Source of the DNA: Pseudomonas sp. MH9.2
GTDB lineage: Bacteria; Pseudomonadota; Gammaproteobacteria; Pseudomonadales; Pseudomonadaceae
Reading direction: 5' to 3'
Assembly (NCBI RefSeq): GCF_034353875.1
Contig: NZ_CP133784.1
Span: 4,926,501 to 4,990,500, forward strand
DNA length: 64,000 bases
A model generated the notes under the pieces. The model was not told the origin of the DNA. It worked only from the letters and a program-made list of their open reading frames with translations, and did no database searches. The position numbers and the translations under genes are program-made. This document shows, in pieces, positions 20,720 to 34,860 of the stretch (within the stretch, counting starts at the first letter, position 1; each line of letters begins with the position of its first letter).

Positions 20720-20808
20720 GGAGGTGTGGCCGAGTGGTTTAAGGCAGCAGTCTTGAAAACTGCCGACTGTAACAGGTCCATGGGTTCTTATCTCATGTAC
20801 TTCTCAGC
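20720..20808 (+). pseudogene. Degenerate tRNA-Ser(UGA)
   Basis: The 5' two thirds are a normal tRNA-Ser: acceptor GGAGGTG, D-arm GGCCGAGTGGTTTAAGG, anticodon loop CTTGAAA (anticodon TGA) and a long variable arm. The 3' part departs from consensus: the T-loop is TTCTTAT instead of TTCGAAT, the T-stem CTCAT pairs with ATGGG only with a G-T wobble, one extra G follows, and the acceptor strand TACTTCT pairs with GGAGGTG only by several wobbles. The GCCA end is lost. I call it a decaying gene; expression cannot be excluded. Confidence 0.75.
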
Positions 20809-20838
20809 TGCATCCTTGCGACGCACGACATGAAAACC

Positions 20839-20929
20839 GGGAAATTGGCAGAGTGGTTGAATGCACCGGTCTTGAAAACCGGCGAACGTTAATAGCGTTC
20901 CCAGGGTTCGAATCCCTGGTTTCCCGCCA
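20839..20929 (+). tRNA. tRNA-Ser(UGA)
   Basis: A full 91-base cloverleaf: acceptor GGGAAAT pairs with GTTTCCC, anticodon stem CCGGT/ACCGG around CTTGAAA (anticodon TGA), a long variable arm containing GAACG and CGTTC, T-loop TTCGAAT in a stem CAGGG/CCCTG, and an encoded GCCA end. It reads UCA and other UCN codons. Its body differs from the degenerate tRNA-Ser 30 bases upstream, so it is not a simple tandem copy. Confidence 0.95.
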
Positions 20930-21315: not shown

Positions 21316-22500
21316 ATGGGGAGTCCGGACAAGGTATTGGAACAGCGAATCCTGCATGCCCAAATCGCCTTACAGGAATGGGCGATTGCGGCCGACCTGT
21401 GGCACGACAGCGGCTTTCAGTCTTATGCGGAGCGCGTCGATGGGGAGCTAGGTAAAAGACGCCGTTGTCTTCATCCTGCATAGCAGCTGCGACCTTGCAC
21501 GACTTTTAGACGAAGACTAAGAGCCCAGGTTGCGAGAGCAATTCGCTGAGATTGCCGACACGCATGGTTTCTTCTACGACGATAACGATGGGTACTCCTT
21601 CAGTTTTTTTGCCAACAATGAGCCACTGCAGCGGGCCTACGACGAGTATTTCACTGGAAGTGGGTGTGCAGCTTGATCGTCGAGGATTTCGGCGACCTGT
21701 ATGCCGAGCTGTATCAGTATTTCCATGCTCACCCCGACCGGTTGTATAACCTTCACCACCGCGAATTCGAAATCCTGCTCTATCGAATTTTTCAAAGTCT
21801 GGGCTTTGAGGCGGAGGTAGGCCCGGGTTCGGGAGATGGAGGTGTTGACGTCAAATTGCTTCAACGCGGCCCGCTGGGCGACACCCTCGCCTATGTACAA
21901 GCCAAGCGGTATTCGCCATCCCGCCCTATAGGCCTCGAAGCTGTCGCAGCGTTGAGGGGCGTTGTTGCCAACGATGGCGTTGATCGCGGAATATTTGTCA
22001 CGACTTCTCGTTACCTTCCCAGCGCAGTGACCTTTGCGCATCGGTCATCCGGGGTGCTGGAGCTCAAGACGTCTACCGACGTTGCCCAGTGGTGTCATCA
22101 AGCCCAAGGAGGGGGCGTCCGGGACAAATCAATGTTGGTGTCCGACGCTAACTTGCTGTCGGTGCTGCGTGACGTCAATGCGGGCCATGGAAATCATGTT
22201 GTGCATGCGCATGGTAGATACAGCACCATTTCGAACGTCTTTGCCCTCGTCCTCAGGGAGACCCTGCATGCGGCATTACTCATGCGCCTTCCGAAGCAGA
22301 TCACTGGGCAGGATGACCATGGTCTTGAAGGTCACGAAGTACCTGTCCTGAATGACCAGATACTCACGGTGAAAAACTTCGGAACCGTCTTTCGCGCGAA
22401 GCGAACGGTAGATGATCGGGGTCGTATTGCTTATTGGGACGGCAGGCATCATTTCGAAACCTGGGATCGCAGACCAACCTTCTTCAGCAACCTCGATTGA
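21316..22500 (+). pseudogene. Mrr-type restriction endonuclease, broken by frameshifts
   Basis: Reading starts well at MGSPDKVLEQRIL behind AAAAGGAGC, runs 45 codons, shifts frame near 21452, meets a TAA near 21518 and shifts again near 21655. After that a 278-codon frame holds the PD-(D/E)XK nuclease core of Mrr proteins: a conserved helix EFEILLYRIFQSLGFEAE, then GPGSGDGGVDVK and the VQAKRY strand with the QxK motif. These frames join into one plausible protein. The 3' third (after about 22120) resembles no family I know, and the opposite strand is also open there (22276-22686). A separate short active nuclease starting at GTG 21664 is possible. Confidence 0.65.
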
Positions 22501-22579: not shown

Positions 22580-23196
22580 AGAGAAACCAGACACCTGGTT
22601 TTGAAAACAAGCACGGTGTTGCAGTCAATAAACATGTGATCGGCAACCAGGTACCGGTAGAGGTTCGAGAACTTGACTGGGAACACCTAGTCCAGATGGT
22701 CGAACACCATTACGACGCCGGCCGCTCGATCCTGGTGCTTTACCGTAAACGCGACACCAAAAAAGACGCTGAGACAAAGCTAAGCCGCGTCATTGAGCGA
22801 GTGCGTGAAGACAAGCGAAGCAAGGAAATCAAGTTTTTGACCTACCACTCCTCGAAGGGCTTGCAGGCCGATGCGGTCTTTTTGCTGGGGGATTGTGAGG
22901 TCACCACCTCATCGCCTTCGAGAAACGATTTCTATGCCCAGGCTGGTATGGCGAATCCGGGCGAGCCCTGCGGTTACGACAGAGCACAGCAGCAGGAGGC
23001 GCTGCGAACAGCCTACGTCGCGATTACTCGGGCCATAACCTACTGCTATTGGTACATTTCCTGGGACGAAAAGGTACCTGCGTCGGAGAAGGCAAGCCGT
23101 TATATCAAGGTGGATCAGCCCTATTGGAATGTCGTGACCCCGCGTCCTGCGCCCCCTTCAGATGGGATCAAACGCAAAGCAGTCAAAGGGCGCTAG
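22580..23196 (+). pseudogene. C-terminal fragment of a UvrD/HelD-type superfamily 1 helicase
   Basis: About 200 codons covering only the last motor part of an SF1A helicase: ILVLYRKRD, then motif V TYHSSKGLQADAVFLLGD and motif VI YVAITRA. Walker A, Walker B and domain 1 are absent and no intact upstream frame supplies them. The frame is open from about 22580, but its first usable start is GTG at 22636. With the preceding broken nuclease it looks like the remains of a restriction/helicase defence locus. Confidence 0.7.
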
Positions 23197-23272
23197 CAGG
23201 GCCCTTGTTCACCACCATCTAAGCATCTGAAGGCGACATACGGGAATACAGAAAAGAGCAGCGACTGGGCGG

Positions 23273-24637
23273 TCAGGAGGTTTGAGCGATATCCTCTTCT
23301 AGCTCCCGCACAGCCTTGCTGGCTTTGATTTCAAATCGACGCTCCACCTCTGCGTCACTCAGCTTAAGCGCATCATTGCCGAGCCACATGGTAAGTTTCT
23401 CGCGCTTCTGATTGATCGTGAGAGCATCGAGATTCGGGATGTAGCCATTATTAGCCTTCATGCCCCTCTGCAGCTCGTAGAAGGTCTTGATCAGAGACTT
23501 CGGATGGATCTCACCGCTTGGGCAAAAGCGGTCTCTGAGCTTCCTGACTGTGTGATTGATGGCACGCAACTGGGAGGTCGTGGTGATCTGACAGAAGTAG
23601 GCAGCCCAACCGAGGCGTTTGCCCTTGAATATGCAGCCAGTAATCCTCAGGTTGAGCTTCCACTGGCAGTAGGCCAGAGCTCGCTCCTTATCAGCTGGAC
23701 GTCGGGCTGTTGCCATTTTGTGCCGGTATGCTGTGAAAATTTTGGCGATCGATGACTCAAATCTGAGAATGCTCTCGTGGCGAATGAGCACCTGGCTCCC
23801 CTCGATCTGGTACCCAAGAAAGCTAAAGGGGTCGGTTAGGCTTTCTACCTTGGACTTGGATCCCGGTTCAAAGCCATGCGGATTGAGCTTCAAGGCTTTC
23901 AATTCCGCGATGAGCTCATTAGCGGTTGAGCGCGCCACCCCTGCCGGTGCCAAGATCAGGATGTCGTCAACGTAACGCTTGTACCAAATCCCAGTCCGAG
24001 ACTCGAAGAGAGTATCAATGCCTTGGAGCGCAATCTCTGCGAGCACATTGGAAATCGCAAGGCCTTGTGGAACGCCGACGGTAGGACGATCGGCTCCTTT
24101 ACCTCCCCTGGATTCAGGCACCGTGGGCGTTGTGAGCGCGTCGGTAATCAGCTGTCTGAACTCGGGTTTCTGAATTTTTTTTCGCGTTGTGGCGGCGACC
24201 AGTTCGTGAGGAATGGATGGGTAGAAGCTTTTGAGATCAATTTTGGCGTATTCGGCATACACGCCGGAATTGAGCGCAGTTTTCAGGGAATCGATGACGG
24301 TCTGGGGGAGGGTGAGTTTCGCCATGGGGAAAACGTCAGATAGGCAATTGCACAACGCACGTAGGACGATTCTGTCTCTGGCGGTTGGAATGGATATCTG
24401 CCGAGGCGGCGACGAGGCCCCCTTGAGAATCAGTTTTTCCTTGTAGGCAGTGAAGCGATATTCACCCTGGTGAACCTTCTCAATGATGTGATCAAGCTCC
24501 GCGCTTAACTGTTTATCGAGGTTAGCCGGACGCATGCGGTCGAGGCCGATGGCCCCGGAGTTTTTGATTTTATCGGTGTAGATTTCCTGGAGACGCTTTC
24601 GGGTAAATACCTTTTTAAAGCTTCTCGCCGCGCTCAT
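23273..24637 (-). CDS. Reverse transcriptase, defence-type (UG/Abi-like)
   Basis: A 454-aa RT. Motif order: RT1/2 RQISIPTARDRIVLRAL (about 79-95), motif A KIDLKSFYPSI with Asp134, motif B VGVPQGLAISNVLAEI (187-201), motif C RYVDDILIL with the catalytic Asp pair at 224-225, and FSFLGYQI after it. There is no group II intron maturase or HNH domain and no intron RNA visible; the C-terminal 160 residues are helical and unassigned. The start MSAARSFKK overlaps the stop of the upstream membrane gene as ATGA, so the two are one operon. All catalytic residues are intact. A retron RT is less likely because retron-type msr/msd DNA is not seen. Confidence 0.88.
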   Translation of the reverse strand: MSAARSFKKVFTRKRLQEIYTDKIKNSGAIGLDRMRPANLDKQLSAELDHIIEKVHQGEYRFTAYKEKLILKGASSPPRQISIPTARDRIVLRALCNCLSDVFPMAKLTLPQTVIDSLKTALNSGVYAEYAKIDLKSFYPSIPHELVAATTRKKIQKPEFRQLITDALTTPTVPESRGGKGADRPTVGVPQGLAISNVLAEIALQGIDTLFESRTGIWYKRYVDDILILAPAGVARSTANELIAELKALKLNPHGFEPGSKSKVESLTDPFSFLGYQIEGSQVLIRHESILRFESSIAKIFTAYRHKMATARRPADKERALAYCQWKLNLRITGCIFKGKRLGWAAYFCQITTTSQLRAINHTVRKLRDRFCPSGEIHPKSLIKTFYELQRGMKANNGYIPNLDALTINQKREKLTMWLGNDALKLSDAEVERRFEIKASKAVRELEEDIAQTS

Positions 24638-25200
24638 GGCTTGTTCCAGAAAGAATAGAGGCCTGCCAGTACCGGGAGTGCATAGAGCAACGCTGTGATC
24701 AGTAATCGCATCGTCAGCCAAAATACGGCAGCAAAGTATTCAAAGCCTGTGGGCATTCGAGTGGTGAGGCCGCTGGCAAAAACGCGTGCGATCCGATCAT
24801 CGATTTCCCGATGATTTTCCGATTCAGCCAACAGTTCGTCATATCTGGTGACCTGTGCCGGCGTTGGCGCAGGGGATGTGGTGGTCGGTGAGCCATCAGG
24901 CAGTCCCCGATGGAGTTTCTGCAGCTCCAGATAGTTGGTGCGCATCAGCATTGCTCGGCCTCGAAAGTCGCGGTTCGCAACCGCAAGCGAAATGCCGAGC
25001 AAGGCAACCGAAAGAATCGTCGCCATGATGTCTGTGTCGGGGCCAAGGATAGTGCTGTGCCTGATGGTTAGCACCCCCAGCGCCGTGCTAAGGATCGCGT
25101 ACCATACCAGCAAGAGTTGCGAGTGAAAGTCCAGCCACTCCAGGCGCTTGTGAGCCTGAATGCGTGCCTTGTAAGTGAACCAGACGCTGTCCTTTTTCAC
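24634..25200 (-). CDS. SLATT-like membrane protein, partner of the reverse transcriptase
   Basis: About 188 aa. A basic amphipathic N-terminus (YKARIQAHKRLEW) precedes two membrane helices, LLLVWYAILSTALGVLTI and IMATILSVALLGISLAV, then a helix with YLELQKLH, a Pro/Thr-rich loop, and a C-terminal hydrophobic hairpin near LLITALLYALPVLAGLY. This layout is that of SLATT domains, predicted pore-forming effectors known beside reverse transcriptases and nucleotide-signalling genes. I choose GTG at 25200 because GGAGAG lies 6 bases in front; ATG at 25206 is the alternative. It is the first gene of the operon with the RT. The SLATT name rests on topology and context. Confidence 0.72.
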   Translation of the reverse strand: MKKDSVWFTYKARIQAHKRLEWLDFHSQLLLVWYAILSTALGVLTIRHSTILGPDTDIMATILSVALLGISLAVANRDFRGRAMLMRTNYLELQKLHRGLPDGSPTTTSPAPTPAQVTRYDELLAESENHREIDDRIARVFASGLTTRMPTGFEYFAAVFWLTMRLLITALLYALPVLAGLYSFWNKP

Positions 25201-25395
25201 ACACATCTCTCCATAGAAATTGGTGAAGGGGCGGGGGGATTTGAGTACCGTTGAACATCCCTTAGGGATCAGTGGGCCGAAACCCAACAGCCGAAGCTGT
25301 TAATTATCAGAACCGCCCTCGTTCGCACGAGAGGAAATACCCACCCCTTCGCGACTGATTCTACAGTGCCATTATGACGCGTGGAAGCCACCCAG

Positions 25396-25545
25396 TTACT
25401 CGACCTTTCTATTCCAGTGGTGTCCGATGGTTGACGTCGAAATCTCCAGCTGTGTCGCCACATCTTCCTGACTGAACCCCCTGGGCTTTTAGTGCCTGGA
25501 CGGGCTGAATCGTTTCGACCCGTTTTTGGCGGTTTGCGGGTGCAG
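25396..25545 (-). pseudogene. Remnant of a helix-turn-helix protein
   Basis: In the 400-base space upstream of the SLATT/RT operon, the minus strand reads QALKAQG then, after a one-base shift, GFSQEDVATQLEISTSTIG and HHWNRKVE before a stop. This is a C-terminal helix-turn-helix like the tail of the XRE gene at 26.3-26.8 kb (GLSQKATIEKLGIPRSTVS). No start or N-terminus remains. The rest of 25201-25613 shows no other gene. Confidence 0.5.
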
Positions 25546-25613
25546 TGGCGGCTGCACATAGTCATTCAGATCTGAATCGAGGTACCTCAGTGAGAGGGGG
25601 CTAACGTCTACGT

Positions 25614-26102
25614 ATGTCGGATGTCAGTGTTGTCAGCGGTAAGCTGGAAGTGGTCGGCCCATCGTCAAACAAGCCAGATGGCAGCGAATACACCTATCTG
25701 CGCATTGCCGAAAAAGACGGCAGCACCAAGCTCGTCAAAAAAGTCGGAGTAGGGCAGCTCATCGAGTCGTACATGCGACCGGGCATTGAGGGTGATTTTT
25801 ACTTCGTGAAACTTGGTCGGCTGGGCTACATTCTTTTTGCAATCAAAAAGTCAGATGGCCAGAAAATCTATGAGGAGAATGGATTCAAGATGTGGATCGG
25901 CAAGATGCGGTTGAGCGCCGGTATGCTGGCCCTGCTCTTTATTCCGCTGAGCTTTGTGGGGCTGCTGATGGGTGGATGGCTGGGCATTATTGTCCCTGTA
26001 GGATTCATCTACGTGATGTGGAAACTTGCGGTGTCTTTCCCGAGAGTACTGAAGGAAAGCTTCCTTAAGTCCCAACTGACTCAGTTAGGATTCGGGAACT
26101 GA
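25614..26102 (+). CDS. Hypothetical protein with two membrane segments
   Basis: A 162-aa protein, not recognised. Residues 1-85 are soluble and look like a small beta-rich domain (GKLEVVGPSSNK, TYLRIAEKDG). Two membrane helices follow around residues 100-140 (LSAGMLALLFIPLSFVGLLM and GIIVPVGFIYVMWKLAV). The ribosome site is weak (GAGGGGG, rather far from the ATG). It stands alone, divergent from the SLATT/RT operon. A similar architecture, soluble sensor plus two helices, occurs in many island proteins, but I assign no function. Confidence 0.7.
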   Translation: MSDVSVVSGKLEVVGPSSNKPDGSEYTYLRIAEKDGSTKLVKKVGVGQLIESYMRPGIEGDFYFVKLGRLGYILFAIKKSDGQKIYEENGFKMWIGKMRLSAGMLALLFIPLSFVGLLMGGWLGIIVPVGFIYVMWKLAVSFPRVLKESFLKSQLTQLGFGN

Positions 26103-34473: not shown

Positions 34474-34860
34474 ATGGCGGTTGCTTCCAAAACATCAGAG
34501 CGACTAGGCACTAATATCCTCGACGCCGAGTTAGGTTTGAACACCTACGACCTGTGGCACGACAGGGCGGTATTCCATTTTCTAACCAGCGCACAAGAGC
34601 GCCGAGCTTACGTCCGGGCTGTACTTCAGGCGGTCAAGCCTGGCGGTCTGGTTATAGTGGCAACTTTCGCGGAGGACGGGCCCAGCAAATGCAGCGGGTT
34701 ACCGGTTATGCGCTACGACGCAAAGGAGCTTCACGCGGAGTTTGGTGAGCCGGTTGTACTGCTTGGACATGAAAAGGAGTCGCACCATACGCCTTGTGGC
34801 ACAGAAGTTCGTTTACTGTTTTTACCGCAAGCTAGCCTGATGACCATGCGGTTTGGATGA
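34474..34860 (+). pseudogene. 5'-truncated, frameshifted SAM methyltransferase
   Basis: This reads as the C-terminal half of the methyltransferase at 52082-52699: YDLWHDRAVFHFLTSAQERR, ATFAEDGPSKCSGLPVMRYD, GHEKESHHTPCG. The N-terminal half with the SAM-binding GGGxS loop is missing. Near 34800 a 5-base loss relative to the full copy (GGCA-CAGAAG against GGCAATGAGCAGAAG) shifts the last 15 codons. It is therefore a nonfunctional, diverged copy. Confidence 0.8.

Follow-up and report, generated by a model that had tools for sequence, protein, structure and literature searches.

The window, by which we mean the whole 64,000-nucleotide stretch of Pseudomonas sp. MH9.2 DNA that was analyzed, very probably contains a complete DRT10 (UG17) system, comprising a non-coding RNA (ncRNA), a gene for a SLATT membrane protein and a gene for a reverse transcriptase (RT), with UCAA-CGGUAC-UCAA as its predicted template. 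An October 2025 preprint presented DRT10 as a phage defense system in which a tiny RNA template is copied repeatedly, in a telomerase-like manner (PMC12632851, cited in part here and throughout). According to those parts of the preprint, the RT, the ncRNA and the SLATT protein of relatives are all required for defense, and the cDNA is protein-primed and repetitive. The assignment of the window locus to DRT10 follows from the combination of a UG17 RT with a SLATT partner, and the locus is a good new example of a kind that is already known.

Both genes are intact and lie on the minus strand as an operon, the SLATT gene (24634–25206, with its ATG at 25206; 190 residues) preceding the RT gene (23273–24637; 454 residues), which it overlaps as ATGA. 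A first-pass annotation, made from the sequence alone, had correctly recognized this RT/SLATT-like pair and its overlap. It had set the limits of the unit at 23273 and 25206, which take in both genes but are too narrow: because the ncRNA adjoins the SLATT gene upstream, the functional unit runs to about 25350. Its reading of the locus as a probable anti-phage operon holds insofar as this is an RT/SLATT operon of a defense-tied UG class, but the ncRNA template had been overlooked.

The UG17 reverse transcriptase and its SLATT partner

When searched against profiles of the UG/Abi classes, the RT was matched over its full length (residues 1–454) by PADLOC RT_UG17, with 517 bits and an E value of 9e-156. 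The runner-up class was Drt3a (119 bits), while the Drt9 profile reached 52 bits; we take the corresponding systems, DRT3a and DRT9, to be UG3 and UG28, respectively. To judge the conservation of catalytic residues, we aligned 20 RTs, namely the window RT (P0001) and 19 homologues hand-picked for spread from the 120 listed (of 992). D134 in YAKIDL, VPQG, and YVDD (D224 and D225) are invariant in this alignment, so that motifs A, B, and C are kept, as the first-pass annotation had stated. RVT_1 is the sole Pfam domain in the protein, which therefore has no maturase or endonuclease domain, also in line with the earlier reading. Three further RVT_1 RT matches (L001, L002, and L004) occur in the same genome, a single 5.58-Mb contig, outside the window locus.

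The RT ends in Ser454, and the last residue is serine in all 20 aligned sequences, as well as in 120 of 121 proteins when P0001 is taken together with the 120 listed homologues (of 992), the exception being a partial record. Across 60 loci, many of them near-duplicates, it is serine in 53, tyrosine in five and another residue in two, one of which, L073, has a broken RT frame; at the sequence level, the C-terminal serine or tyrosine expected of a DRT10 primer is therefore present in 58 of 60 loci, including the window. Eco3 DRT10 uses its last RT residue, Ser456, as protein primer; for Eco1 DRT10, Tyr444 is the likely primer (PMC12632851, in part). By its matching position, Ser454 is the predicted protein primer of the window RT. 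The RTs that end in tyrosine, as in Eco1 DRT10, are those of L042, L043, L044, L049, and L089; templates of a UAAC type are seen in L042, L043, and L049, and a weaker one in L044.

The partner protein scored 82.8 bits with Pfam SLATT_5 (cut-off 29.5), 123.4 with NCBIfam SLATT_5 (cut-off 60) and 183 bits with PADLOC RTasSLATT. Both curated SLATT_5 cut-offs are thus exceeded by a protein encoded next to the RT, which is the arrangement that defines DRT10, and the earlier SLATT-like assignment was well founded. No SLATT homologue was found by sequence among solved structures at E ≤ 0.01. Hydrophobic segments are present at residues 30–49, 58–79, and 157–187, of which the first two agree with the pair of N-terminal membrane helices that had been proposed. 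The structural model (mean pLDDT 78) predicts helices that include 12–49, 58–78, 81–100, 116–128, 135–143, and 154–187. Since the last of these is one continuous helix (pLDDT 81–93 by blocks), we dropped the C-terminal hydrophobic hairpin of the first-pass annotation. Nor does the Pro/Thr-rich loop define a new subtype, as had been suggested; it is a linker of variable length, shorter or different in relatives that have the same pairing. Residues that are invariant in 25 SLATT sequences include W9, T11, K13, N131, H132, D136, and P178. The protein is the predicted effector of the system.

The pairing of the two genes is conserved. Four of 59 loci begin at the RT and could not be judged (L052, L061, L062, and L080); of the 55 UG17 loci that remain, 54 have a SLATT gene next to the RT, near-duplicates being numerous in this count. 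A 48-residue partial match, L041, was left out. The first-pass annotation had called for a survey of such recurrence. The pairing is not new but already in print: 82% of UG17 RTs are accompanied by SLATT_5 (PMC8934634, in part), and DRT10 has been shown to defend (PMC12632851, in part). Separately, L046 has a UG17-like RT (400 bits) with methionine as its last residue and no SLATT gene in 1.5 kb on either side of the RT.

These results bear on the idea of a stray RT, from a group II intron or a retron, with an incidental SLATT neighbor, for which one could cite the 120 bits given by the group II RT model and the best PDB fold match of the RT, the group II RT 6ar1. However, the group II score (120.2) misses the TIGR04416 cut-off of 300, the retron RT model NF038233 gives 40.4 against a cut-off of 235, and both fall short of the 517 bits for RT_UG17. 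The AlphaFold2 model (mean pLDDT 82; residues 452–454 below 50) matches group II, G2L4, DRT9 (9nlx), and DRT2 RTs, and we read such model-based fold matches as evidence of an RT fold in general and not of a particular class. In addition, Rfam gave no match at E ≤ 1 in 23000–26000, be it to an intron RNA or to any other family, and the near-constant SLATT pairing is hard to reconcile with an incidental neighbor. We therefore rejected both a group II RT and a retron RT, and regard a stray enzyme as extremely improbable.

A structured ncRNA upstream of the SLATT gene

Comparison of the DNA upstream of the SLATT gene in relatives revealed a sharply bounded conserved block of ~130 nt, which in the window stops 18 nt short of the SLATT start codon; a GGAG ribosome site lies in the gap. 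Outside the block, the upstream DNA of relatives is mostly unalike, although a promoter-like stretch is common to some. The DRT10-type ncRNA core extends from closing stem to closing stem over 25225–25350 on the minus strand (covariance-model match, 25219–25353) and, as is characteristic of DRT10, consists of a closing stem and smaller stem-loops. Its predicted fold has an energy of −54.4 kcal/mol (z −3.42), and none of 200 shuffles was as low. In an alignment of 21 sequences, including the window, a structure of 34 pairs is formed in 98.2% of cells, and 14 of the pairs are altered on both sides; when partner columns are slid by 1–3, the paired cells fall to 46–54%. The ncRNA stems covary. Stem-loop 5 (AUCCC-UAA-GGGAU, 25257–25269), the expected 5′ boundary of the template, has a helix that is paired in 100% of cells.

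When a first covariance model (R1) was run genome-wide, with 150 of 1140 candidates scored, it gave a single match; 27 loci carrying other RTs (UG17 profile ≤156 bits) gave none. Among 23 UG17 loci besides the window, R1 found 10, three of them weakly (E 0.02–0.04), and missed 13, which are mostly divergent, with L080 having no upstream DNA. To avoid circularity, we kept the window out of a second model, which was built from 12 enterobacterial-type ncRNAs only. This held-out model matched the window with 108.4 bits (E 3e-24) and all seven other Pseudomonas-type loci with at least 84.6 bits, compared to 14.1 bits for its best spurious match anywhere; 13 loci that carry other RTs gave nothing at E ≤ 1.

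The template and its predicted repeat

DRT10 copies segments A and B of the loop that follows stem-loop 5 and then realigns on A′, which is a repeat of A (PMC12632851, in part). In the window, this loop reads GU-UCAA-CGGUAC-UCAA, and an A-B-A′ arrangement lies, as in DRT10, directly after stem-loop 5: template segment A (UCAA) at 25251–25254, template segment B (CGGUAC) at 25245–25250, and realignment segment A′ (UCAA) at 25241–25244, all on the minus strand. From A and B together, the predicted product would be single-stranded DNA of the form (GTACCGTTGA)n. Two exact tandem units of this repeat occur nowhere in the genome, which therefore bears no trace of integrated product, and we rejected the idea of genomic tandem copies.

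Taken alone, the window A-B-A′ arises in shuffles with a P value of 0.031 when its position is fixed and 0.18 when it is free. Because of the latter value, we did not accept it as stand-alone proof and relied instead on a family-wide count, for which 48 anchored loci yielded 35 loops, 24 of them distinct, after removal of seven exact duplicates. Left out were L054, L063, and L084, with too little upstream DNA, and L047, L079, and L091, in which the loop pattern was not matched; of the 59 loci, 11 lacked an anchor. We positioned L072 manually, and L073, L093, and L094 stand outside the count. An A of at least 3 nt at the loop start, followed by B and A′, was present in 23 of the 24 distinct loops, which share ancestry and hence are not independent, compared to a mean of 5.2 (maximum 12) in shuffles and 12.0 (maximum 20) in chimeras of different loops (1000 rounds each). 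With position left free, several loops gave other registers, and L072 gave none; in three E. coli-type loops, the 8-nt register used in the count ties with the expected 9-nt register at 3 nt.

Where A is longer, A′ mirrors it, as in L006 (UCAAAU twice), L040 (UCAAU twice), and L042 and L043 (UAACU twice in each). The same holds for L093 (G1044), which reads UCAAA-GGUUAC-UCAAA, with a 5-nt A and an 11-nt unit. At the homologous site, CAATGATTC and then CAAT are found in E. coli L216 and L218 and in the viral-collection contig L073. This corresponds to the Eco3 template and its A′, as worked out from the motif and text in print (PMC12632851, in part), and for loci of this type our repeat finder picked the Eco3 register as best. 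E. coli L217 carries CAACGGTTC followed by CAAT.

Distribution and genomic setting

The closest named relatives are from Pseudomonas, with the RT of P. violetae being 95% identical to that of the window. We searched the genome of the window and those of 18 relatives; three of these 19 contain a UG17-type RT. Among 5426 E. coli genomes, searches for the RT and for the ncRNA each gave 187 places, in 185 genomes, counts that were not paired genome by genome. A search of phage records gave no match at E ≤ 1e-40. In L007, L045, and L089, UG17-like RTs have a SLATT gene downstream rather than upstream, and model R1 found no DRT10 ncRNA match there; these loci possibly form a separate sub-lineage.

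Two tandem tRNA-Ser(TGA) genes (20721–20929) lie 2.3 kb from the operon. In genome G1040, of the same genus, this tRNA-Ser site is conserved; a phage-integrase gene (PF00589, 49.9 bits) sits at the tRNA, and a DRT10 operon (L095; RT 61% identical) is found about 9 kb away. Since G1040 carries both DRT10 and an integrase gene at this place, the tRNA-Ser site is likely a hotspot. A search for att-like repeats returned one exact 18-bp direct pair (21393–21410 and 34548–34565, 13 kb apart), which probably reflects a coding motif common to both places. The remains of a nuclease and a helicase that the first-pass annotation had noted nearby do give Mrr_cat and UvrD matches: an Mrr-type nuclease ORF (21664–22500) with a complete Mrr_cat domain (89.8 bits), and a UvrD-helicase remnant (22636–23196) of which just the C-terminal part is left, both convergent with the RT gene.

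An alternative reading is that of a DRT10 relic, decayed or silenced within an old island, whose parts are present but have ceased to work. The truncated helicase gene next to it would fit such a history, as would a simple promoter and terminator scan, which found no site at the locus. Nevertheless, both genes are full length with their invariant residues kept, the ncRNA stems are intact, the primer residue is retained, and a 95% identical relative exists in another species. We therefore consider a relic quite unlikely.

Discussion

In its general layout, the window locus closely resembles Eco3 DRT10, which likewise has a UG17 RT, a SLATT gene upstream of it, an ncRNA upstream of SLATT, a template right after stem-loop 5 and an RT ending in a serine at the primer position (PMC12632851, in part). 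When aligned with the ncRNA of L073, a locus that has the Eco3 template, the window ncRNA is identical at 88 of 132 positions; two of the window stem-loops are 4 nt shorter. The two systems differ in host, Pseudomonas versus E. coli, and in template, which is UCAACGGUAC (10 nt) in the window and CAAUGAUUC (9 nt) in Eco3; the window RT is 57–62% identical to its enterobacterial-type relatives. The DRT10 system, its RNA and its mechanism are already in print. Our search of the open-licence literature on DRT10, UG17, and SLATT/telomerase points to one primary DRT10 paper (PMC12632851), other relevant papers being devoted to RT classes (PMC8934634), DRT3 (PMC13174585), and DRT9 (PMC12483538). The window template was not seen in the main text or legends of the DRT10 paper (consulted in part), whose 307 homologues may include the locus.

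Other systems share some of these features. DRT9, a fold match of our RT model, is likewise a Class 2 UG RT system with an ncRNA template and protein-primed repetitive DNA (PMC12632851, in part), but its RT is of another class and its poly-U template yields poly-dA. DRT3a, the second-best profile class, also makes repeat cDNA from a short loop template; it works with a second RT, DRT3b, however, and the word SLATT is absent from the main text of that study (PMC13174585, in part). Telomerase likewise has its template and an alignment segment on a separate RNA and adds repeats with a structural template boundary (argued in PMC12632851, in part), but it uses chromosome ends as primer, and the likeness is one of mechanism, homology aside.

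By analogy, the window RT should depend on the ncRNA template. It would bind the ncRNA from its own operon, prime DNA synthesis on Ser454, copy the 10-nt A-B and halt at stem-loop 5. The new 3′ end would then slip onto A′ and the cycle would repeat, to give a protein-linked single strand of the predicted repeat. From the cDNA onward to SLATT we infer the whole step: the RT-cDNA complex may arm SLATT, such that infection would lead to membrane damage and the infected cell would be stopped. We consider arming about evenly balanced between right and wrong, and favor it since cells with a dead RT apparently grow and show no more than a loss of defense (PMC12632851, in part).

Arming does not appear in the parts of the preprint cited here, which leans toward cDNA holding SLATT in check. 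According to the antitoxin-like logic proposed by its authors, which contests the arming step and leaves the DRT10 identity untouched, uninfected cells keep SLATT silent through binding of the repeat DNA, until infection lowers the DNA and SLATT opens the membrane. In support, Eco3 cDNA is constitutive and drops during infection. On the other hand, RT-dead (YVAA) cells, which lack multi-repeat reads, evidently grow, are plated with phage and lose just their defense (PMC12632851, in part). If SLATT is present and expressed in these cells, then loss of the cDNA alone does not unleash it. We regard silencing as a real but less favored possibility than arming by the RT-cDNA complex.

With 18 nt, the GGAG among them, between the closing stem of the ncRNA and the SLATT start codon, RT binding could steer SLATT synthesis. 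We think it rather doubtful that the ncRNA doubles as the SLATT leader and that RT on the nascent RNA sets the amount of SLATT in cis. If it did, template supply, RT level and effector level would be coupled in one transcript, and loss of RT or RNA in infection would alter the synthesis of SLATT besides its activity.

The window locus offers a distant (about 60% identical) complete member of DRT10, for which telomerase-like copying of a short RNA template has been reported in bacteria, with a predicted repeat unlike the published Eco3 repeat. Swaps of parts between the Eco3 and window systems could tell whether SLATT responds to the sequence of the repeat, to its length, or to the mere presence of RT-linked DNA, and would thereby bear on how the repeat DNA controls SLATT.
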